Virus record (IMG/VR): IMGVR_UViG_3300027865_000039
Coordinates: 1-27,201 of that record
Length of the DNA stretch: 27,201 bases
From: a virus
Direction: 5' to 3' (one strand)
Below the pieces are notes generated by a model, which had not been told where the DNA came from, ran no database searches, and was given only the letters and a program-made list of their open reading frames with translations. Numbering within the stretch: position 1 is the stretch's first letter; each line of letters starts with the position of its first letter. Shown piece after piece: positions 3,658-25,625 of the stretch. The position numbers were made by a program, and so were the translations under genes.

Positions 3658-4694
3658 TATTTCACTCTCCACTTAACACCACTAGTCGAAGTATTCCAAT
3701 CACCTTTAGCTGCGTTAATACGTTCAACTAATGCGGCGCCAATTAACATTTTATCAACTGCTTTTTTATTTAATTCTGGGTATTGTTCTATAATAGAACC
3801 ACCAAACATATCAGTATAATCTTTCATATTTGCAAGGCCTGCTTTCTCCATTACTTCGGCTGCTTTAATAATCTGACTTCTATTATGGGTAGTGAGTTTA
3901 CCTGTTTTAATGTATGTCTCTAGTAACTGTTTTCCTTGCTGAAGGAGTTGTTTACTCTCTTTACCTTCTTTTTGTTCCACGACTGAAATATTACCAGCAT
4001 CACCGAATGCTCGGGCCAATTGAAGCCCTATTTTTTGATCAAACACCCAATTTTTTGCTTTCATTAAAGTAACAATCTTTATAGCACTCTCAGCACTCTT
4101 AAATTCAGCTCTAAATGCAGACTCAGATTTGATCTGATCTAATTTCCGAGAAACCTCCGTTCTAGTCTTGCTAGGAAGTGTCTTTAGCTCAGTGACAGTC
4201 CCTTTTTTAAACTTAGGTGTTGGTGGTGCTGCTGTGGATGTTTTAGCTAATACTTTACCAGATACTGGATCAATACTCAAAACATTTCCTTCTGAATCCG
4301 TGACAGTTTTTACTGTAGAGGTACGCAGCGCTCCTTTAAGTTCTTCTTTTGGAATCACTCTTCCGCTATAGTCAGTAAATTCTTGTGTTAATTCATTTAA
4401 AATTAACGACTTTCGTTGCCCAGTAGGCATAATTACTTCAATTTGTTGAATATCTCTACCACTCAATTTGCTAAGGTCTTTCTTGCCTTTACGCATTTCA
4501 GCTAAAACCATGGAATCTTCCGCTATTTTTTGTCCTGTTTGTACGGCATCTAGAATGGCACCAAATCTCTCCGAACGTTCTTTACGTTTTTGTAGTCTCG
4601 CATTTTCCTCAATAATAGCTTTGTTTTGTTGGAGCCTAGCAATTCCAGTTAGATCTCCTTGCGGTTGTGGTCTGAAATCAGGTATATTAGCCAT
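3657..4694 (-). CDS. Putative internal virion (ejection-type) protein, 345 aa
   Basis: No known domain is recognised. The protein is mostly helical and charged. It starts with a helical Gln/Arg/Lys-rich region (IARLQQNKAIIEENARLQKRKERSERF, about 18-44), then has a small beta-looking insert (IEVIMPTGQRKSLILNE) and a longer helical C-terminal half with KQLLQQGKQLLETYIKTGK. It ends with W-x-V near the stop (GVKWRVK). Place in the operon and composition suggest one of a set of proteins carried in the virion and ejected with the DNA; this is inference. The start ATG has GGAG upstream and lies two bases after the previous stop. It is coupled to the next gene by TAATG. Confidence 0.78.
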   Translation of the reverse strand: MANIPDFRPQPQGDLTGIARLQQNKAIIEENARLQKRKERSERFGAILDAVQTGQKIAEDSMVLAEMRKGKKDLSKLSGRDIQQIEVIMPTGQRKSLILNELTQEFTDYSGRVIPKEELKGALRTSTVKTVTDSEGNVLSIDPVSGKVLAKTSTAAPPTPKFKKGTVTELKTLPSKTRTEVSRKLDQIKSESAFRAEFKSAESAIKIVTLMKAKNWVFDQKIGLQLARAFGDAGNISVVEQKEGKESKQLLQQGKQLLETYIKTGKLTTHNRSQIIKAAEVMEKAGLANMKDYTDMFGGSIIEQYPELNKKAVDKMLIGAALVERINAAKGDWNTSTSGVKWRVK

Positions 4695-5790: not shown

Positions 5791-6294
5791 CTAAATATCC
5801 TCTTTAATTAATGCTGCGTATTGATGGTATTGTTTACCCATTAATCTACAATAAGCAGGTGTATTTTTTCTTGAAGTAACTAACACTATGTGTTTTACAC
5901 CAATGATTTTAGCTCGTTCTGTAATTACTCTCCAAACTTCTTTTCTAAAAAAACTATTCCATCCTCTATGTTCTTTACATACATACACTTGGTTAACCCA
6001 ATAAGTGAGTTTATTATCGATGTCATAAACAAATGAGGCCAACATAAACCCACCCAAAGATTTATCCGCATTACTTATAATCCAAAAATCACTACAACCG
6101 TCTTTATCTTCTATTGCATTAAGAATAGCACGTAGAGTTTGAACAATAAAACCCTGTTCATCTACACCCAGTGTATCTTGTTCGGATTCAAAATAACTTT
6201 GTTTTATTAATTGTTTTAAATTATCTATATCAAAATTTAACGTAGACACCTTTTTTAGTAAATATAGTTTAGGTCCAGTCATAGTCGTATCCAT
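5791..6294 (-). CDS. GNAT-family acetyltransferase-like protein, 167 aa
   Basis: The order of elements fits the GCN5-related N-acetyltransferase fold: an N-terminal strand-helix part, FWIISNADKSLGGFMLASFVYD (strands 2-3), YWVNQVYVCKEHRGWNSFFRKEVW (motif A), KHIVLVTSRKNTPAYCRLMGK (motif B). The acetyl-CoA loop, usually Q/R-x-x-G-x-G/A, is degenerate here (HRGWNSF). GNAT-like proteins are found among phage tail genes; the substrate is unknown, perhaps a virion protein or a glycan. A TTG at 6321 is open, but ATG at 6294 makes TAATG with the fibre gene stop and is preferred; ATG at 6282 is also possible. Confidence 0.72.
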   Translation of the reverse strand: MDTTMTGPKLYLLKKVSTLNFDIDNLKQLIKQSYFESEQDTLGVDEQGFIVQTLRAILNAIEDKDGCSDFWIISNADKSLGGFMLASFVYDIDNKLTYWVNQVYVCKEHRGWNSFFRKEVWRVITERAKIIGVKHIVLVTSRKNTPAYCRLMGKQYHQYAALIKEDI

Positions 6295-8213
6295 TAATTT
6301 GCTAATGTGCCAGAAAACCAAGAAATAAGAGCGCTAGCAGTGCCGCCTGCAATATCAACTATTTTTGTAATTCCACTTACACTTATGGTGACATCTGCTG
6401 TATCATTAGCATCCATGTCGGTTAATACAGCAATTGCCATTGATTTATTATCAACTGTATGGGCCCCTGTATCATGAAAATAATGTGTATAATTTCGGTT
6501 AGATGTTGTAATTCGTACCCAACAATTTGTAGATCCACCCATTGTTTGAAAATAAATATTAGTGTTTAAATGGTATTTACCGGTTGCTGGGGCGACAAAC
6601 TGGTTACTCCCAAAATTACTCCCTACATCAAAAGTCTCTGTATCAAATACTACAGGCCCATACGCCGTCCCATCTCCCGTAACATTTGCAATATCTACAT
6701 CAACATGCACAAGAAAAGCAGGTTGTTTAGGCTTAGTAACAGACCCATTTGCATCAATAGCTAACCCAGCGGCTCCGGCTGTAGATAGCTGTAAAACATC
6801 ACTGCCAGGCAATGTCATACCTGAATTAGGATCTACGCTACTTGTATATTCTGGGGCCAAGGCTGATCCAGCTTTGTTAAAAAATCTACCATTATTTACT
6901 GTAAAGCCACCAGAGGAAATGTCAAATACATTTGTGCCTCCAGCCATAAAAGCAAATTTGTCTGCGCTAATCCAATCTAGTCCGGTATTAGGATCATCAA
7001 CAAATCCGTAACTAACATTGGCGGCTGTTCCTGCCGCAGCTAAAATAGTACTTGAAAATGTTTTAATACCAGCTATGGTTTCATTACCGGCATCATTAAC
7101 TTTAGCATCTAATTGTGTTTGAATAGCTGCGGTTACGCCCGTTAAATACCCTACTTCTGTCGCTGTGGCCAGAGTAACAGCACCTGATTTTAATTCACCT
7201 TGAAAATAAATGTCTTTCCAATCATGCGTGGCGTCTCCTAAATTATCTACATTGTCAGAGTCAGAAAGTAAACTTGTATTAATTGCCACAGAAGCAAGAT
7301 TGTCAAGTGCTAATGTAGCACCACCAGCCCCTGTAATAGATACCCAAGATAATACACCACTACCATTATTCTGTAATAATTCACTCGCACCGCTTTGTGC
7401 TGCCGGTAATGTCAAGCTATAGGAGGTGGCTATAGCCGCCGGTGCAGCTAATGTAATAGAATCTGTTCCGGCCCCTGTTTCTTGTAATATCAGCCCGGTT
7501 TTAAGTATGAGATTTTTCCACGGGACCGCGCTTGTTCCTAAATCATCGGTATTAGCGGTATCAGAAACAATATTACCTCCGGAAATGAGGCCCCCGGTAC
7601 CTGTGATTGAACCGGTTGTCGTTAAATTATCATTATCAAAAGAAATGGTTCCAGTAGAATCAGATATGACGTTAGCGTTTAAATTAAGCGTATCAACATC
7701 TAAGCTGCCTGTAGTGATTAATCCAGTAGTGGTTAAATTCTCGTCAACAAAACTAATTGTTCCCAATGAATCAGTAATGCTGCCTGTTGCTACCGTCAGG
7801 TTTCCTGTAGTTAACGAGGTAGCATTGATAGTACCGACCCCTGTAAAATTAGTCGCGCCAAATGCTATCGAACCATCCGTGTCATCTATAGAGCCGTCTG
7901 AAACTGTTAATGTACCTGTGGTGAAAGACGTAGCCGTTAATATTCCTGTAGTAGTAAGATTCTCATCTCCAAAACTAATTGCGCCTGTGTCACTTAAAAT
8001 AGTGGCAGCATCAATGGAAATATTATCAACAATTATTTTCCCAAATGTTCCGATGCCGGTAGTAGTTATCGCTACCGCACTTAAGTCTAAAAGAGACGAC
8101 GTTAAATTAATTGGAGCAAAATAAGTGGTTATATCATCAAAACTTTCTCTAGTATGATCACTACTCGCAAAACCACCAGGTGGAAAAACGTAACTAAGTG
8201 AGAGAATAGCCAA
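6294..8213 (-). CDS. Long tail fibre with C-terminal C1q-like domain, 639 aa
   Basis: This is the likely main receptor-binding fibre. Residues of about 70-205 hold four related repeats ending in ISFGDENLTTTG, IAFGATNFTGVG, ISFVDENLTTTG and ISFDNDNLTTTG, which read as a beta-structured, trimer-forming shaft. A motif familiar from other phage fibres, GYLTGVTAAIQTQLDAKV, is at 355-372. Residues of about 498-639 form a C1q/TNF-like jelly roll (FLVHVDVDIANVTGDGTAYG, FVAPATGKYHLNTNIYF, VRITTSNRNYTHYFHDTG, MDANDTADVTISVSG, SALISWFSGTLAN). The same domain ends the shorter gene 8479-9297. The start is TTG, with GAGGAG upstream; no ATG gives a better start. Confidence 0.88.
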   Translation of the reverse strand: MAILSLSYVFPPGGFASSDHTRESFDDITTYFAPINLTSSLLDLSAVAITTTGIGTFGKIIVDNISIDAATILSDTGAISFGDENLTTTGILTATSFTTGTLTVSDGSIDDTDGSIAFGATNFTGVGTINATSLTTGNLTVATGSITDSLGTISFVDENLTTTGLITTGSLDVDTLNLNANVISDSTGTISFDNDNLTTTGSITGTGGLISGGNIVSDTANTDDLGTSAVPWKNLILKTGLILQETGAGTDSITLAAPAAIATSYSLTLPAAQSGASELLQNNGSGVLSWVSITGAGGATLALDNLASVAINTSLLSDSDNVDNLGDATHDWKDIYFQGELKSGAVTLATATEVGYLTGVTAAIQTQLDAKVNDAGNETIAGIKTFSSTILAAAGTAANVSYGFVDDPNTGLDWISADKFAFMAGGTNVFDISSGGFTVNNGRFFNKAGSALAPEYTSSVDPNSGMTLPGSDVLQLSTAGAAGLAIDANGSVTKPKQPAFLVHVDVDIANVTGDGTAYGPVVFDTETFDVGSNFGSNQFVAPATGKYHLNTNIYFQTMGGSTNCWVRITTSNRNYTHYFHDTGAHTVDNKSMAIAVLTDMDANDTADVTISVSGITKIVDIAGGTASALISWFSGTLAN

Positions 8214-12417: not shown

Positions 12418-13131
12418 TTATTTTATTGCTTCTAACTGAATATTTTTTTCTGTTACTTTTTCGTAACAATCTTCTTTATACACAACCTTAGGTTCACCTA
12501 TATGCCCTAAATGAGGAACTGGATCGGCCCATAACTTATAGCCCTTCTTTTTGGCATTTACAAAGAAGTAAAAATCTTCTGAGCATTTCCCTGGCAAAAA
12601 AAGAAACCAAGGATATTCAGTAGATTCAAAGACATTACGGTGAATCAAAGCACAACCAAATCCTGCTGTATTTACTAAAAAAGGTTCTTTTGCTCCGGGC
12701 CCAGGCAAGGCAAATGTACCTATGTATTCATTGGAATCATATTCATCATGATTTATGTATTTAACATCTTTATTTGATTCCAATTTAGGATCTCTAACCC
12801 AACAGACTGGAAAATGCTTATCTCCGCGCTGGTAATAAATACCTGTAACCATTTTAGCTTCTTTTTCTCTAGCTGTCTTAAGTAGTTGAACAATAACATC
12901 TTTAGGAAAAACCATGTCTGCATCCATCCAAAAAGCCCACTCACTATCTGTTTTTAAAAATTCTTTTGTTAACATATTCCTGGCTTTTTCTATTAAAGTA
13001 CGCTCAGTTACTCCAATAAAATCAATGTCCACCCCATGTTTAGATGCATATCCTACTAATGCTAAAGCACTCTGAAAAGTTAATGGAGAAACAGATTCAC
13101 TAATTGGACATAATAGACTTACTTTTTCCAT
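12418..13131 (-). CDS. GT-A fold glycosyltransferase-like protein, 237 aa
   Basis: The protein resembles phage and bacterial family-2-like glycosyltransferases. TLIEKARNMLTKEFLKTDSEWAFWMDADMVFP (45-76) holds the DxD metal/nucleotide-sugar motif as Asp70-Ala-Asp72. Later signatures are NTAGFGCALIHRNVFE (154-169) and SEDFYFFVNAKKKGYKLWADP with HLGHIG, which are the usual acceptor and second acidic/histidine elements. It should act in the cytoplasm on an activated sugar; the acceptor could be a virion protein or a host glycan. The ribosome site is weak (AAGAAG). The start overlaps the end of the Cys mini-gene by 13 bases. Confidence 0.85.
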   Translation of the reverse strand: MEKVSLLCPISESVSPLTFQSALALVGYASKHGVDIDFIGVTERTLIEKARNMLTKEFLKTDSEWAFWMDADMVFPKDVIVQLLKTAREKEAKMVTGIYYQRGDKHFPVCWVRDPKLESNKDVKYINHDEYDSNEYIGTFALPGPGAKEPFLVNTAGFGCALIHRNVFESTEYPWFLFLPGKCSEDFYFFVNAKKKGYKLWADPVPHLGHIGEPKVVYKEDCYEKVTEKNIQLEAIK

Positions 13132-13319
13132 GAGTATTCTTCTTTAAGTGCTTTTATTAAATAGGAAGGATGCCACAAAATAAACCAATACAATTGAAAT
13201 GTAGTAAGCGTTGTTTCTGTCATTCTTCTAGAACTACAAGTACAGCAACTTCTAGCTAATATCCTCTCTTTTTCGTCTACTTTTCCACAGTAATAACACC
13301 GAATGAAACTAATTAACAT
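13119..13319 (-). CDS. Cys-rich mini-protein, 66 aa, putative zinc binder
   Basis: The N-terminal half reads RCYYCGKVDEKERILARSCC followed by TC, that is C8-x2-C11 and C25-C26-x-C28, the spacing of a small zinc knuckle. The C-terminal half is aromatic (FQLYWFILWHPSYLIKALKEEY). No enzymatic motif is present. It sits between the methyltransferase and the GT-A gene and overlaps both by about a dozen bases, so it is translated as part of the cassette. The ATG has GGGGAG upstream. It may be a partner of the transferases, which is speculation. Confidence 0.7.
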   Translation of the reverse strand: MLISFIRCYYCGKVDEKERILARSCCTCSSRRMTETTLTTFQLYWFILWHPSYLIKALKEEYSWKK

Positions 13320-13995
13320 TTGACTTCTCCCCTTCTGGCTTTAATTTAACAAACACAAAGCCTTGTTCACTCACTACATTACGTAAATGATTTGCCATCC
13401 ACATTTGAATAATATCAGGTAAAATAGCAATCCACCAAAAATGGGCCATCTTAAAAAATTGATATTTATTTAATACATCTTTAATAGGGCCTAGTTTTTG
13501 TAATTCTAATTGTTCCCATGCATTTGCAAAGTTTCTGCGTGTCCCTCGAATTCCGGCAAATGAGCAAATATTAAGTGTATTTACATGGTCTCTATATCCA
13601 AGTTGGCTAGAGCAACCATCTCCCGGAATCCACACTTCTATTGTACCACCCACTTTTATAATTCTAGCTAACTCCTTAAAACATTCCCACCAATTAGGTA
13701 AATGCTCTAAAATATGATTGGCAATAATCAAGTCAAATTCATTGTCTTTAAATGGCAATGGCATTTTATTTAAATCATGCACAACATTGACTCCCGGCAC
13801 TTTAAAAGCATCAATATTTACTACATTTGGAGAAGGATACACGGTATTACCACAACCTAAATTAAGAACCCTCCTACCTATAAAACCTTCTTCTTTGGGG
13901 TACTTAAAATATGTGATTGTTCCACCTCTCCCAGGATGTTCCAAAGTAAAACGTACGTCTCTATATTTTTGTAATAAGTTTTTGTAAATTTTCAT
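13309..13995 (-). CDS. Class I SAM-dependent methyltransferase (Methyltransf_11-like), 228 aa
   Basis: Motif I is VLNLGCGN (43-50), the acidic end of strand 2 is NID (60-62), and post-motif elements are HDLNKMPLPFKDNEFDLIIANHILEHLP (73-100) and VGGTIEVWIP (115-124). This is the classical SAM-binding fold of small-molecule, sugar or protein methyltransferases; nothing points to DNA methylation (no DPPY or PC motif). Position between two glycosyltransferase genes suggests methylation of a sugar or of a glycosylated product. The start overlaps the GT4 gene by 35 bases and has GGGAGG at six bases. Confidence 0.87.
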   Translation of the reverse strand: MKIYKNLLQKYRDVRFTLEHPGRGGTITYFKYPKEEGFIGRRVLNLGCGNTVYPSPNVVNIDAFKVPGVNVVHDLNKMPLPFKDNEFDLIIANHILEHLPNWWECFKELARIIKVGGTIEVWIPGDGCSSQLGYRDHVNTLNICSFAGIRGTRRNFANAWEQLELQKLGPIKDVLNKYQFFKMAHFWWIAILPDIIQMWMANHLRNVVSEQGFVFVKLKPEGEKSNVN

Positions 13996-15019
13996 CCCAC
14001 GCCTCCCCGACTTGGTCCCATGATAACACCTCTTTGGGTGCGTTATCTGAAATATGTTTGTGTAATTTATCGTCTTCGCATAATTTAATCACTGATCCGA
14101 CGTATTCTTTTACCCACCAAAATAAATCATGTGGAGATTGTGGTGTAATAATACCAGTTTGTCCCTGTTTAATGAACTCTGGCGCACTTCCAATATTTGA
14201 AGATACTACAGGCAAACCACATGCCTGCGCCTGTAAAGTTAAATTGGAGCAGATCTCAGGGTATGAATTTGGCATTAATAAAATCCATGCTTCTCGCATT
14301 TTATCGGCTAATATATGTGGCGGAATAGGCTGTTGTACTGACACATCAAGGCTTTCCATCTCATTTAAAAATGCTTTTTGTATTTTACTGTCCTCTAATC
14401 CATGTAAATTTTGGCTGCTATAAATTGTAAATGTAGGACTTAAAAACTTGCGTTTCATATTAGTCCATGTGTCATAAATAGGAGTAAAACCTTTAATTAG
14501 AGCTGAGGCCATCATTAATCTATGTTTTACTCTGTCCTCATATTTTCCTGGATAAAATAACTTCTTATCTACTCCATTAGGAATAATTACAAATTTATAT
14601 TCTGGAATAGTGTAAAAAGAAGCGTAAGATTGTTTACAATACTCTGATAAAGCAATGATTTTATCTACATGTTTATAGGAACTATCACCAAGATATCTAA
14701 AATCTACAATATCATGTAACCACCAAACAACCTTAGCACCTATTTCATGTGAATAAGACACCAGAGGAGAAGTAACTCCATTTCTGTTTAAAATAGTAAC
14801 GTCCCATTTTGGTATATCTAGGCGCTTTTCAATGGGATGATAATGCACACCATTAGTAGTTTCAATTTTAGGGTAACTACTCGCTACCCACACCTCATGC
14901 CCTTTAGAAGCCATATATTGAGGTATGATTGTTAAACTATTTAAAATTCCGCCTGTAGCTTTAGTATTTTTTCTATCCGGACTAAATCCCGGTGTCGAAT
15001 CTATAAAGACTAGTCTCAT
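13961..15019 (-). CDS. GT4-type (GT-B fold) glycosyltransferase, 352 aa
   Basis: A two-domain retaining glycosyltransferase. The N-terminal domain has the glycine-rich loop KATGGILNSL and VWWLHDIVDF; IIALSEYCKQSY and VIIPNGVDKKLFYP mark the hinge region; and the donor domain has LIKGFTPI and PNSYPEICSNLTLQAQACGLPVVSSNIGSAPEFI. In the E-x7-E donor motif the first Glu is Glu255, but the second position is Gln263. The protein should transfer a sugar from a nucleotide donor. It is the first gene of the cassette after the capsid group, behind a stem-loop (15050-15079). The start ATG has GGGGAGAT. Confidence 0.9.
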   Translation of the reverse strand: MRLVFIDSTPGFSPDRKNTKATGGILNSLTIIPQYMASKGHEVWVASSYPKIETTNGVHYHPIEKRLDIPKWDVTILNRNGVTSPLVSYSHEIGAKVVWWLHDIVDFRYLGDSSYKHVDKIIALSEYCKQSYASFYTIPEYKFVIIPNGVDKKLFYPGKYEDRVKHRLMMASALIKGFTPIYDTWTNMKRKFLSPTFTIYSSQNLHGLEDSKIQKAFLNEMESLDVSVQQPIPPHILADKMREAWILLMPNSYPEICSNLTLQAQACGLPVVSSNIGSAPEFIKQGQTGIITPQSPHDLFWWVKEYVGSVIKLCEDDKLHKHISDNAPKEVLSWDQVGEAWDENLQKLITKI

Positions 15020-18242: not shown

Positions 18243-19370
18243 CTAGGGTGTTAATATTTCTCTTATTGGTGGATCAAAGTTTACAGTTAATTGTTTTAAA
18301 TTTGATCTTAAAATATTGGTACCAGAAAATTCTGTTTTAAATTGCATATACTGTCCAGTAACTCCTGAATCATTTCCAGAAGTTGTTATTGTGGTGTAAC
18401 TAGCTGCGTCTAATTCAGTAATACTATTTGCTGCTCTAGCTTTAATTATTAAGTCTGTTCCAGTAGGGGTAGTTGTATCCCAGGTTACTTCTCCCCAATC
18501 TAAATCTCTATATGTGGAATTATACTGGTTACTAACCCAATTACCTGAGGTATAATATAAGATTTCTGTGCCAATTCCAGAATTATATCTATTAGTAATA
18601 TCAGATTGAGTCATCTCTGTATCGTAAATAACTGTCTCATCTATTTTACCAGCCAAAAAGAAAGTACCATTAGATGTCATTCCAAGATAACAGGTAGCTG
18701 CCGTAAGTGTAGTTCCGGTTAAACTATCATAAAGTACAGTTGGAGTTTCTAATACAGAATTTATGTACATTTTTGTTCCAGCTGCTGTTGATGAACCATC
18801 ATAAGTAACGACAACATAATACCAATTACTATCAACTAATGTAGTTGATCCTCGTATTTCAAGTGCATTGGAATAGTAGACATTAGCTAACCGAAAGTCT
18901 AATTTTCCAGCAGTAGTAATATACCAACTCCAGCCTTGATTTCCTATAAATCTGGCAGCAAGAAAAGGAGAAGAAGCTATATTAGTAGGATAAACCCACA
19001 TACCAATACTAAATGGTTGTGTTCGTTCAAAATTAGCTATGTCTCCTAAACTGATACGATTATTAATTCCGTCTAATTGGATGGCATTATTCAGTTTACC
19101 CGTAACCCACGTAGGCAGTGGGGCACCTTGAAGAGTGCCATCTCTACCATTAGAAGAGCTATCAGTAACAGTTGTTCCAGAAGATTCATTTAAGTGATAC
19201 CAAGCATAAGGATCTGCTGTTTTTAATTGTAGTAAAGCACTATCACCAGTACCATTTACTTCTATTTCAGAATCTAAAGTGCCTTTATTAAAATCTGTGT
19301 CCGTATCCCATATTAATTGATTAAAAGAACGTGTAACAACGCCAATTCCTGGGCCAAGAGATATACTCAT
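18243..19370 (-). CDS. LamG/concanavalin-like domain virion protein, 375 aa
   Basis: Residues of about 54-255 show a LamG-type jelly roll: YAWYHLNESSGTTVTDSSSNGRDG, GKLNNAIQLDGINNRISLG, FSIGMWVYPTN, GWSWYITTAGKLDFRL, NWYYVVVTYDGSSTAAGTKMYIN, and FFLAGKIDETVIYDTEMTQSDI. This is the typical order for LamG_3-like sugar- or protein-binding domains on surface proteins. A second beta-rich region follows (WGEVTWDTTTPTGTDLIIKARAA, YMQFKTEFSGTN), resembling a modified jelly roll. It may be a head-surface or tail adhesin. TAATG links it to the upstream 90-aa gene. Confidence 0.83.
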   Translation of the reverse strand: MSISLGPGIGVVTRSFNQLIWDTDTDFNKGTLDSEIEVNGTGDSALLQLKTADPYAWYHLNESSGTTVTDSSSNGRDGTLQGAPLPTWVTGKLNNAIQLDGINNRISLGDIANFERTQPFSIGMWVYPTNIASSPFLAARFIGNQGWSWYITTAGKLDFRLANVYYSNALEIRGSTTLVDSNWYYVVVTYDGSSTAAGTKMYINSVLETPTVLYDSLTGTTLTAATCYLGMTSNGTFFLAGKIDETVIYDTEMTQSDITNRYNSGIGTEILYYTSGNWVSNQYNSTYRDLDWGEVTWDTTTPTGTDLIIKARAANSITELDAASYTTITTSGNDSGVTGQYMQFKTEFSGTNILRSNLKQLTVNFDPPIREILTP

Positions 19371-19642
19371 TATTCACCCCACTCCCAAAATCTCACATCA
19401 TTAGTACTAGAAAAAGCAATTCCATACACATCACCTTTCCACCCATCAGGTATACCCAATCCCCATTGCGCAGACGCTTTAAGACGAACGCCTGTAGTAG
19501 TTGTAATAGTATCATCAGGGCCTAGAGCTATTGGAGCGACTGTATTATTATCTATAATTAATCCTCTTCTCTTAGAGTTAGCACCAACAATTAATGTCGG
19601 GGTAGTGGTAACAATAATAGCCCCAAAAGATGTATTAGCCAA
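19370..19642 (-). CDS. Small beta-rich virion protein, 90 aa
   Basis: The protein reads as a compact beta sandwich: PTLIVGANSKRRGLIIDNNTVAPIALG, TTTTGVRLKASAQWGLGIPDGWKGDVYGIAFSSTNDVRFWEWG. This pattern (N-K-x-R-x-x-I-I-x-N, later G-V-x-L, then VYGI and a final E-W) resembles small phage virion proteins and, loosely, the C-terminal part of gene 23458-23838. The start is TTG at 19642, which overlaps the stop of the zinc-ribbon gene by eight bases and has AAGGA upstream. It precedes the LamG gene with TAATG. Confidence 0.7.
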   Translation of the reverse strand: MANTSFGAIIVTTTPTLIVGANSKRRGLIIDNNTVAPIALGPDDTITTTTGVRLKASAQWGLGIPDGWKGDVYGIAFSSTNDVRFWEWGE

Positions 19643-21937: not shown

Positions 21938-23440
21938 TTAGATCCAGTTCCTCCGCTTAATTACTGAGCTAAATTTTTTCTGATCCTTAGTACGTGTATC
22001 GGGCAGTTTGTTTTTCACCCACCAGTCCCAACTATAATGAGGAATCTTCTTCCGATTAACAATTTTACCCGAAGGCGTTCGCCAATATTTTAGTTGTTGC
22101 GATAACGCATCTATTATATCATCATGTGTTGTTCTAGGAAACTGAATGAGCTGTGCTTCTAAATGACTTAAACCACGTCGATGTAAAATACGTCCATTCG
22201 CATAATGAGGTATTAATCCTCTAATACGCATCGCTTTTGTCTCTCGAGTAACTTGTGTTACCTCTTCTACTACAAAATATTGGCTTTGTTTTGCCATTTC
22301 CGATCTTAGCACATCTAGTAACACTATTTGAGCAGATTGTGTTTCGATTAATACCTTCTTAATATTGTAAAGCCTAACTAATTCCATTATTCTTTTGACT
22401 AAATCATTGGAATTAACTTTCTTTTGTTCTGCCTCTAAAATATATGTTACATTCTTTTCTGTTGTTTTAGTGACCACTAAGCCGCTGTAGTCACTGGTTT
22501 CTTTTAATCTAAAAGCCGGATCTACAGAAAGGAGGCCTGAGATATTATGTAATTCATTTTGCAAATCAGTGGTCATATCAAAATGTTGAATCCAGGGACG
22601 CTTAAATTCAATAGACGAGTCACTGATAGGATTATTCATAAATTGACAATTGAATTCGTAGGGACCAAGCATTTCTAATTGAGATTCTAAACATATCTTA
22701 TCCTGCCATTTTGGATCCGATCTATCTTTACACACCATATTAGGAAAGAGTATTTTTTCGTTGGTGTCTGTTGCGGGTCGTAAAAACACATTAAAATCCT
22801 GGTGTTCCAGAAGATCCCCATATAAATCTGATACAGCCCATCTAGTACCAATTGTAATGATGGGCGTTCTTGGAGACAAATTGAGACAATCCTTAAAAAA
22901 GTCCTTTACTTTCTGTATCTGATCAGAAGTACCTATATTGCCTCGTTCTACAAGGTCGTCATTAACAATAAGATCATAATGACCTCCTGTAACATTGGTA
23001 GTTAAACTAGCAATTGATAGTGTGGGTTCTTTTACTGTGGCCTTATTTCTCTGTGCAATGGTAAACTGATCAATAGTCCATCTCGTGTCTTTATTACAAA
23101 ACTCACCAAAGAGTTCTTTTAGGGCACTTCCGTGCTTCAAATAATTTTGTATTTGATGCATCATCTCTTCGCAACGCTTAAGAGTGGCATTTGTGAGTAA
23201 AATACAGATGTTTGGCTTAACCAGCATTTGCTGTATTACATATCCTACAGAAACAAGACTAGACTTTAAATGATGTCGTGGAATTAGAATCAGCTTTCTA
23301 TTCCCTTTTTGCTTAAGAAATATTGCTAACTCATCATGAAGCCCGTCTTGCCAATCTTTCATCCCTAAGACATCTTTACAAAGGAATTTAAGGTCTTTCT
23401 TACACTTCTCACGTAATACAATGATACGTGGATCTTTCAA
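21938..23440 (-). CDS. terL: Terminase large subunit (ATPase and nuclease), 500 aa
   Basis: The DNA packaging motor. The ATPase has a Walker A-like PRHHLKSS (54-61), Walker B YDLIVNDD (155-162) and the coupling motif TIGTRWA (196-202). The RNase H-like nuclease domain has its first acidic residue in LLSVDPAF (Asp307), the second in VLIETQS (Glu366), and the C-terminal DD in THDDIIDAL (Asp440/Asp441, Asp444). HHLKS in place of GxGKS is a variant Walker A seen in several phage terminases. The start is TTG with AGGGGG upstream. Portal follows at once, which is the standard order. Complete length for the family. Confidence 0.94.
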   Translation of the reverse strand: MKDPRIIVLREKCKKDLKFLCKDVLGMKDWQDGLHDELAIFLKQKGNRKLILIPRHHLKSSLVSVGYVIQQMLVKPNICILLTNATLKRCEEMMHQIQNYLKHGSALKELFGEFCNKDTRWTIDQFTIAQRNKATVKEPTLSIASLTTNVTGGHYDLIVNDDLVERGNIGTSDQIQKVKDFFKDCLNLSPRTPIITIGTRWAVSDLYGDLLEHQDFNVFLRPATDTNEKILFPNMVCKDRSDPKWQDKICLESQLEMLGPYEFNCQFMNNPISDSSIEFKRPWIQHFDMTTDLQNELHNISGLLSVDPAFRLKETSDYSGLVVTKTTEKNVTYILEAEQKKVNSNDLVKRIMELVRLYNIKKVLIETQSAQIVLLDVLRSEMAKQSQYFVVEEVTQVTRETKAMRIRGLIPHYANGRILHRRGLSHLEAQLIQFPRTTHDDIIDALSQQLKYWRTPSGKIVNRKKIPHYSWDWWVKNKLPDTRTKDQKKFSSVIKRRNWI

Positions 23441-24244: not shown

Positions 24245-24397
24245 TTATTTTCCCTTAATTGTAGTTATTTTAAAAATTTTTCCTGATTTCAATGTAAAGG
24301 TCATATACCTGAATTTAGTCTCTTTGTATTGCTCATCTATCGAAATAACATCTTTGCTATTGATTATGAGCATTCTTATGATGTCAAGATCAGTCAT
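24245..24397 (-). CDS. Small protein, 50 aa, unknown
   Basis: A short gene with a very good ribosome site, GGAGAGG, four bases from the ATG. The product MTDLDIIRMLIINSKDVISI continues with DEQYKETKFRYMTFTLKSGK and a short Ile/Thr/Lys-rich end. A strand-turn-strand C-terminal part is plausible. No domain or function is recognised; it is kept because of its ribosome site and because it fits exactly between the tRNA and the next gene. Confidence 0.6.
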   Translation of the reverse strand: MTDLDIIRMLIINSKDVISIDEQYKETKFRYMTFTLKSGKIFKITTIKGK

Positions 24398-24446: not shown

Positions 24447-24518
24447 TAGCGCCGAGTGGAATCGAACCACCTTTCTCGAGGTTATGAGCCTCGCGAGCCG
24501 CCAATGCTCTACAGCGCA
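24447..24518 (-). tRNA. tRNA-Met (CAU), initiator-like
   Basis: A complete 72-nt cloverleaf: acceptor TGCGCTG/CGGCGCT (first pair T·T mismatched, other six paired with one G·T), D-stem GAGC/GCTC with loop ATTGGCG, anticodon stem CGAGG/CCTCG with loop CTCATAA (anticodon CAT at + 24484-24486), variable AGAAA, T-stem GGTGG/CCACT and T-loop TTCGATT; discriminator A, no encoded CCA. The D-stem A11:U24 and the open 1:72 position are initiator features, and the anticodon stem keeps two of the three G:C pairs next to the loop (A29:U41, G30:C40, G31:C39). Elongator Met or lysidine tRNA-Ile are the alternatives. Confidence 0.88.
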
Positions 24519-24599: not shown

Positions 24600-24749
24600 T
24601 CATTCATAACTCTGGGTTATATGGCTCCCAAGAAAAGGACAAGGGTTTTCTTGCACAGCTGGATAAGAAATAACTGAGGGCTGTTGTTCTAATTGTTTTA
24701 AACGCTTTTCCAGTTCTTTTATCTTCTTTTCTAATTCTGCTTTAGTCAT
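24600..24749 (-). CDS. Coiled-coil mini-protein, 49 aa
   Basis: The first 23 residues form a continuous amphipathic helix (TKAELEKKIKELEKRLKQL), followed by a short polar tail with a single Cys (QENPCPFLGSH). Very small Lys/Glu coiled-coil proteins like this are common in phages and are usually of unknown role. The ATG has AGAGGA six bases upstream. It lies just before the tRNA in the late operon. Confidence 0.65.
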   Translation of the reverse strand: MTKAELEKKIKELEKRLKQLEQQPSVISYPAVQENPCPFLGSHITQSYE

Positions 24750-24901: not shown

Positions 24902-25120
24902 TTATTTATCCCCTTCCTTACAACAATCAAAATGATCTTTACACCCCCATTCATTACATTCCTCATCGGTGCATAACTGTCCAGCGCATCGATGTGCATC
25001 ATGACTATCAATGAGTGCCCCACATTCACAACACGTAAAATAATCCCAATAAACATAGTCATCATTAGAATGTGAATGAGATAAACAAGATAAACAAGAC
25101 GTACTACTCTTCTTTTTCAC
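24902..25120 (-). CDS. Cys/His-rich protein, putative multi-zinc binder, 72 aa
   Basis: Eleven Cys in 72 residues: CLSC (9-12), CCECG (30-34), then HRCAGQLCTDEECNEWGCKDHFDCC (43-67), with several His. The spacing suggests two or three small zinc sites, RING-like in density but not matching a family I can name. The start is uncertain: GTG at 25120 has GGTGA upstream and a 17-base overlap with the terminase small subunit candidate; ATG at 25156 is further inside that gene without a ribosome site. It may act as a small regulator or interaction protein. Confidence 0.6.
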   Translation of the reverse strand: MKKKSSTSCLSCLSHSHSNDDYVYWDYFTCCECGALIDSHDAHRCAGQLCTDEECNEWGCKDHFDCCKEGDK

Positions 25121-25625
25121 GGATGTCACCAATAGACTGTTCAATATCCATAACATTCAATAGGTCACTAAGCTTGTTGCTGTCCTTCTTCTGCTCTTGC
25201 CCTTGTCTTGGTGCATACTCTTCAGGATAGTTCTTGCGTAACCATGCAATTCGATCTATAAAACCGTTGTCTTTTTTACCGCGATTAAACATAACACCTT
25301 CTAGTTCATGTTTCATTGCACGCTGCACCAAATCAAAATCTTCTCTAAATTGCTTATCTCTACCCATATGCAAGTAAAAAACTCTTGAATGAAAACCAAC
25401 AGCTTTCATTGAGCCTGTGATACTTCCAGTCTTCTCATAAGAATCTAGAAAACGTATCTTAGCATCATTGTCAAAGCCTGTAAGATTATAGTTCTTTAGA
25501 GGTGAAAGATACCTGTCTCCCTCCTCCTTCTTACCTAGACTACCACCCGTCATTGTCATTAGCTGTTTCCTCTTGCTCTTCTTGCGCTTCTGGTCCCGGT
25601 ACACCGCTAGGTTGTCTTGGATCAT
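25104..25625 (-). CDS. Terminase small subunit candidate, HTH protein, 173 aa
   Basis: A helix-turn-helix region is at about 54-90 (DAKIRFLDSYEKTGSITGSMKAVGFHSRVFYLHMGRD), in which TGSITGSMKAVGFHSRVFYLHM fits the usual GxxxxAcxaaGvsrxxxYxHr layout, followed by FREDFDLVQRAMKHELEGVMFNRG and IDRIAWLRKNYPEEYAPR, a C-terminal element often seen as LLKxxxPExYRxR in small terminases. The N-terminus is basic (RDQKRKKSKRKQL). It should bind the packaging site and help the large subunit. Between it and terL lie six small genes and a tRNA. TAATG joins it to the 73-aa gene before. Confidence 0.72.
   Translation of the reverse strand: MIQDNLAVYRDQKRKKSKRKQLMTMTGGSLGKKEEGDRYLSPLKNYNLTGFDNDAKIRFLDSYEKTGSITGSMKAVGFHSRVFYLHMGRDKQFREDFDLVQRAMKHELEGVMFNRGKKDNGFIDRIAWLRKNYPEEYAPRQGQEQKKDSNKLSDLLNVMDIEQSIGDIREKEE

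Follow-up and report, generated by a model that had tools for sequence, protein, structure and literature searches.

The 27,201-base stretch of viral DNA analysed here (hereafter the window) carries one tRNA gene, which sequence and covariance comparisons confirmed to be of the initiator class (tRNA-fMet). We consider it probable, at roughly three chances in four, that this gene provides a tailed phage with a functional initiator tRNA, that is, an extra supply in late infection that would be charged and formylated by the host.

Sequence, fold and identity elements

By ARAGORN, the window has a single tRNA, a minus-strand tRNA-Met(CAT) at 24447-24518, in line with an earlier sequence-only reading of one tRNA with a CAT anticodon in the loop CTCATAA. 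The match to RF00005 extended over the full length and reached 52.4 bits, for a gathering score of 29.

24447..24518, minus strand: initiator-class tRNA-Met(CAU), 72 nt, no encoded CCA (ARAGORN, Rfam, initiator covariance model)
24482..24488, minus strand: anticodon loop CUCAUAA, positions 32-38 (sequence)

Read 5' to 3', the gene runs TGCGCTG TA GAGC ATTGGCG GCTC G CGAGG CTCATAA CCTCG AGAAA GGTGG TTCGATT CCACT CGGCGCT A. The exact cloverleaf was also the minimum-energy fold, with all stems fully paired and 1:72 alone open. As the sequence-only reading had listed, we found U1·U72 at the open position, A11:U24 in the D-stem GAGC/GCTC, and A29:U41, G30:C40 and G31:C39 in the anticodon stem, that is, two of the three G:C pairs expected at 29-31:39-41, with A:U at 29:41. 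That reading had missed G2:C71, C3:G70, G4:C69 and A73, which are present too. The published determinants of the formyltransferase are an unpaired 1-72, the minor elements A73, G2-C71, C3-G70 and G4-C69, and a further element, R11:Y24 (PMC9976931); all those tested occur in the window tRNA.

The D-loop and variable loop, in turn, are unusually divergent. In the tertiary core, U15/A48 replaces the usual G15/C48 and G21 replaces A21, and the variable loop is AGAAA as compared with the usual AGGTC. Among 284 initiator-class tRNAs, the window tRNA was the sole case of G21 and the only one with an AGAAA variable loop. U15 and A48 have changed jointly, and the same combination was seen in another viral tRNA (L072).

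Initiator, elongator Met or tRNA-Ile2

We built three covariance models on cellular sequences, using 23 initiators for the first, 18 tRNAs of elongator Met type for the second and 18 of Ile2 type for the third. The window tRNA scored 68.6 bits with the initiator model, 57.1 with the elongator Met model and 50.6 with the Ile2 model, which put the initiator model ahead by 11.5 and 18.0 bits, respectively. The initiator-type identity proposed earlier was thereby borne out, neither competing model giving the better score. The E. coli controls scored, with the initiator, elongator and Ile2 models, 102.9/74.3/62.6 for metZ, 54.9/84.3/84.1 for metT and metU, and 36.9/81.9/94.4 for ileX. An independent positional log-odds scorer, which was correct in leave-one-out trials for 75/75 initiators, 29/29 Ile2 and 21/26 Met, gave 66.9, 53.2 and 32.2 bits for initiator, elongator Met and Ile2. 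The positional margin over elongator Met was 13.7 bits, compared with a leave-one-out minimum of 20.7 for cellular initiators. A margin of 11.5 to 13.7 bits over elongator Met is real but small, and the initiator-model score of the window tRNA was the lowest among the initiator-class genes compared. Given the divergence of the D-loop and variable loop, the margin rests on the D-stem, 1:72 and the anticodon stem. With the D-stem removed, the positional scores for initiator and elongator Met tied (51.4 vs 51.2).

This tie, together with A9 and an elongator-like T-arm, speaks for an elongator tRNA-Met. However, the paired 1:72 and Y11:R24 of the elongator pattern are absent, A11:U24, U1·U72 and G31:C39 are initiator features, and the covariance score was 11.5 bits worse; we rejected elongator identity on these models and features as highly improbable. 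Even less credible is a tRNA-Ile2 whose lysidine-modified CAU would read AUA: the CAU anticodon is common to both, but the Ile2 model was 18.0 bits worse and the window tRNA has none of A26, A31:U39 and the GGGCCY-type acceptor of the Ile2 pattern. It was rejected on the same two grounds. Chance was a poor explanation for the initiator features as well, since R11:Y24 (29/386) and unpaired 1:72 (5/386) coincided in 0/386 distinct non-CAT tRNAs, which were by-catch of the fetched loci and unselected for either feature. Pattern matching was used to collect the initiator reference set, so its D-stem and 30-31 frequencies are partly circular; this does not apply to the non-CAT and E. coli controls.

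Departures from E. coli tRNA-fMet and their cellular precedents

The window tRNA shares with E. coli tRNA-fMet (metZWV/metY) the CAU anticodon, the CUCAUAA loop, A11:U24 with an identical GAGC/GCTC D-stem, the unpaired 1:72, G2:C71/C3:G70/G4:C69, A73, G26, A44, G30:C40 and G31:C39. In contrast, it has U1·U72 and not C1·A72, and A29:U41 and not G29:C41; it differs further by C5:G68, U6·G67, A9, a 7-nt D-loop with U15/G21, the AGAAA variable loop and the lack of an encoded CCA.

Both departures at 1:72 and 29:41 are natural, each with a cellular precedent. At least 119 genome contigs had the A29:U41 initiator pattern; most were from Planctomycetota, and there were also some from Peribacteria, Omnitrophota, WOR-3, Binatia and other groups. 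The pattern made up 15 of 36 initiator matches in a sample from the phylum of an Omnitrophota genome (G001), and was rare in a sample from the phylum of a Ruminococcaceae MAG (G110), with three cases among the matches listed. Cellular initiators with U1·U72 came from WOR-3 (L111, L150, L185), Latescibacterota (L154) and Omnitrophota (L349-L351), and 14 of 116 viral initiators among the matches listed had it too. The initiator of WOR-3 genomes combines U1·U72 and A29:U41. Like the window tRNA, the initiators of Planctomycetota, Omnitrophota and WOR-3 join A29:U41 to G30:C40/G31:C39; unlike it, they are cellular and have a regular core (AGGTC variable loop, A21) and a CGCGGGG-type acceptor. Because initiators of several bacterial phyla normally carry A29:U41, the lack of a third G:C pair hardly counts against the window tRNA. 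Judged from these sequences, a strict 3GC stem does not appear to be a necessary criterion for a bacterial initiator tRNA.

Two further observations concern cellular genes. In many Planctomycetota (L077-L195), A29:U41 is seemingly the usual initiator form, an exception to the textbook rule of three G:C pairs. An Anaerolineales MAG (G111; L159, L429) has two initiator tRNAs, one with three G:C pairs and another, possibly phage-derived, that combines A29:U41 with an AGCGCGG acceptor.

Gene neighbourhood and origin of the tRNA

Small ORFs surround the tRNA, which has a putative terS on one side and terL on the other and shares its coding strand with the structural genes:

25104..25625, minus strand: putative terminase small subunit (weak; phrog_4044, E 7e-5; homologue adjoins terL in the relative L427), upstream flank of the tRNA block
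24600..24749, minus strand: small ORF, 49 aa (predicted), preceding the tRNA in the direction of transcription
24245..24397, minus strand: small ORF, 50 aa (predicted), just downstream of the tRNA, with Shine-Dalgarno-like AGGAGAGG before its start
21938..23440, minus strand: terminase large subunit (phrog_38, E 1e-80), downstream flank, TTG start with AGGGGG Shine-Dalgarno (start context)

A promoter and terminator scan returned no minus-strand site and no excess over shuffles. With no predicted minus-strand terminator separating the putative terS from terL, co-transcription of the tRNA with this block is possible.

L427, a relative with a 45% identical capsid protein, has a short terS-terL gap, and no tRNA was found in its whole 39-kb contig, that gap included. 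The window tRNA is therefore probably a local acquisition. Closer terL relatives were sought and none was found. The host was not assignable, the window coming from a virus record that has no accompanying host assembly and the best terL and capsid matches being below 35% identity and to phages of many hosts, and the tRNA could have come from any of several phyla. Scan matches of the 16-mer GAGCATTGGCGGCTCG, in 23 viral contigs of which none had a tRNA, were dismissed as chance.

The absence of the tRNA from L427, its lowest initiator-model score and its atypical G21, U15 and A46-A48 might together suggest a decaying or non-functional copy, that is, a captured host tRNA-fMet carried as a passenger or left from a former integration site, its core drifting. 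Yet every stem pair is intact except the diagnostic 1:72, all identity elements are kept, U15 and A48 changed together as in the viral tRNA L072, and no integrase was seen among the window proteins examined. We judge decay to be unlikely, and retain the reading of a functional initiator.

Other peculiarities were noticed in the window and its relatives. In the closest relative, whose capsid protein is 78% identical, an insert of ~650 bp (L426:4004-4651) breaks the major capsid gene after residue 82; this insert holds a 174-aa LAGLIDADG-type ORF (4089-4613) and had no Rfam intron match at the gathering threshold. In L003, terL is split near residue 218 by ~930 bp (928-1859) whose ORFs are all small and fall in no known family, and this insert likewise gave no Rfam intron match. 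In L002 (5708-8827), terL pieces lie in opposite orientations on a single contig, which probably reflects either faulty assembly or a rearrangement. The window itself has a degenerate purine-rich tandem repeat of period 12-48 at its left contig end (1-199) and, separating the head genes from the tail genes, two glycosyltransferases and one methyltransferase (12418-15019).

TTG starts

The sequence-only reading had linked the tRNA to TTG starts of terL, the long fibre and a 90-aa gene, the last two being:

6294..8213, minus strand: 639-aa fibre-like gene, TTG start with GAGGAG Shine-Dalgarno (start context)
19370..19642, minus strand: 90-aa gene, TTG start (L002 and L003 homologues start with ATG at the aligned place)

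The starts themselves stood, as all three are credible by their Shine-Dalgarno sequences, whereas two further TTG calls (176 aa and 106 aa) look like wrong starts. The link to the tRNA did not. Host initiators also carry a CAU anticodon; hence TTG starts do not require the phage tRNA. Non-AUG starts numbered three or four in ~30 window genes, which does not exceed the 18% published as a mean for bacteria (82% AUG, 14% GUG, 4% UUG; PMC11497404). In the relatives, terL starts with GTG in L003 and apparently also in the tRNA-less L427, and the 90-aa gene starts with ATG in both L002 and L003. On these counts and relatives we rejected the link.

Proposed function

Building on the observed sequence class, fold, position and natural precedents at 1:72 and 29:41, we infer the following course from transcription onward. 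The tRNA would be transcribed as part of the minus-strand gene block that separates the putative terS from terL and excised by host RNase P and 3' nucleases, and the host CCA-adding enzyme would supply the missing CCA. It would then be charged by host MetRS via CAU and A73, and formylated by the host formyltransferase through the open U1·U72 with G2:C71, C3:G70 and G4:C69. The open 1:72 pair would exclude it from elongation, and IF2 together with the G30:C40/G31:C39 stem would deliver it to the P site. The phage would thereby gain a larger or protected pool of initiator tRNA while structural genes are made.

The usual explanations for phage tRNAs are codon supply and nuclease evasion. Along the second line, the phage might keep a working initiator to replace or outlast a host tRNA-fMet hit by initiator-targeting toxins (VapC/MvpT-type nucleases, AtaT-type acetylases), resisting them via changes in the stem, D-loop or variable loop rather than by extra supply alone. 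The window tRNA does differ from the initiators of cells at 15, 21 and 46-48, its 29:41 pair is not the textbook one, and single-tRNA loci were the commonest (110 of 171 viral initiator loci, counted on partial loci), which fits a specific need. In addition, host toxins against initiator tRNA are published and phage tRNAs have been proposed to evade tRNA nucleases (PMC10264068). However, the CUCAUAA anticodon loop, the region cut by VapC, is unchanged relative to host initiators, phages of a VapC-LT2 host are reported mostly to lack a tRNA-fMet gene of their own, as if avoiding it (PMC10264068), and no defence or TA gene was recognised in the general annotation of the window. We regard this role as conceivable but doubtful, and favour extra supply.

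Initiator tRNAs in other phages

The general initiator pattern gave at least 120 matches in viral contigs, and the A29:U41 form alone gave 50. A tRNA-fMet is already annotated in the records of Mycobacterium phage ScoobyDoobyDoo and Caulobacter phage CcrBL9, while initiator-class tRNAs of Gordonia phage GodonK, CBB and others are labelled tRNA-Met; that of Xanthomonas phage Elanor (L360:1501-1573), directly downstream of terL, is unannotated. An E. coli tRNA-fMet query matched 346 phage records, some of them possibly not initiators. Since named phages and many viral contigs carry an initiator tRNA, the kind is already known: phage initiator tRNAs are common and the window gene is an ordinary member of a little-studied group. 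This means that, beyond VapC hosts, phages often carry a starter tRNA. The genes of ScoobyDoobyDoo, CcrBL9, GodonK, Elanor and Pseudanabaena phage Pan5 are initiator-class like the window gene and mostly lack G29:C41; several, in contrast to the single tRNA of the 27-kb window contig, belong to multi-tRNA clusters of large phages.

In a search that put no constraint on 29:41, the 116 viral initiators among the matches listed had A:U in 52 cases, G:C in 33 and U:A in 29, and after clustering to 72 the counts were 30, 17 and 23; this sample is unmatched to hosts. G29:C41 was also lacking in 9 of 14 initiator-class tRNAs from named phages, class being judged here by the D-stem. A9 occurred in 59/109 viral initiators vs 4/113 cellular ones; in the window tRNA it is thus elongator-like by cellular standards and typical of viral initiators. 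The frequent lack of the canonical G29:C41 in viral initiators appears to be a wider and possibly new pattern, a lead rather than a result. It could carry functional meaning, because 16S G1338 contacts pair 29:41 and a changed stem at 30:40 lowers start-codon discrimination (PMC11497404). Tentatively, viral initiators as a class, A:U or U:A making up about three quarters of the 72 clusters, may have relaxed 3GC at 29:41 adaptively, either through an altered G1338 contact and start-codon stringency or through evasion of initiator-targeting host toxins, with the window tRNA as one example; we would not bet on it. If the loss of G29:C41 were adaptive, it would have a direct bearing on initiator selection by the ribosome.

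Codon usage by itself does not readily account for a tRNA whose sole targets are start codons, and phages with this single tRNA therefore offer a clean test of why phages keep tRNAs. Incidentally, the initiator-class tRNA of Pan5 (L359:1495-1566) shares sequence with a CDS that is labelled omega transcriptional repressor, an annotation that may therefore be wrong.
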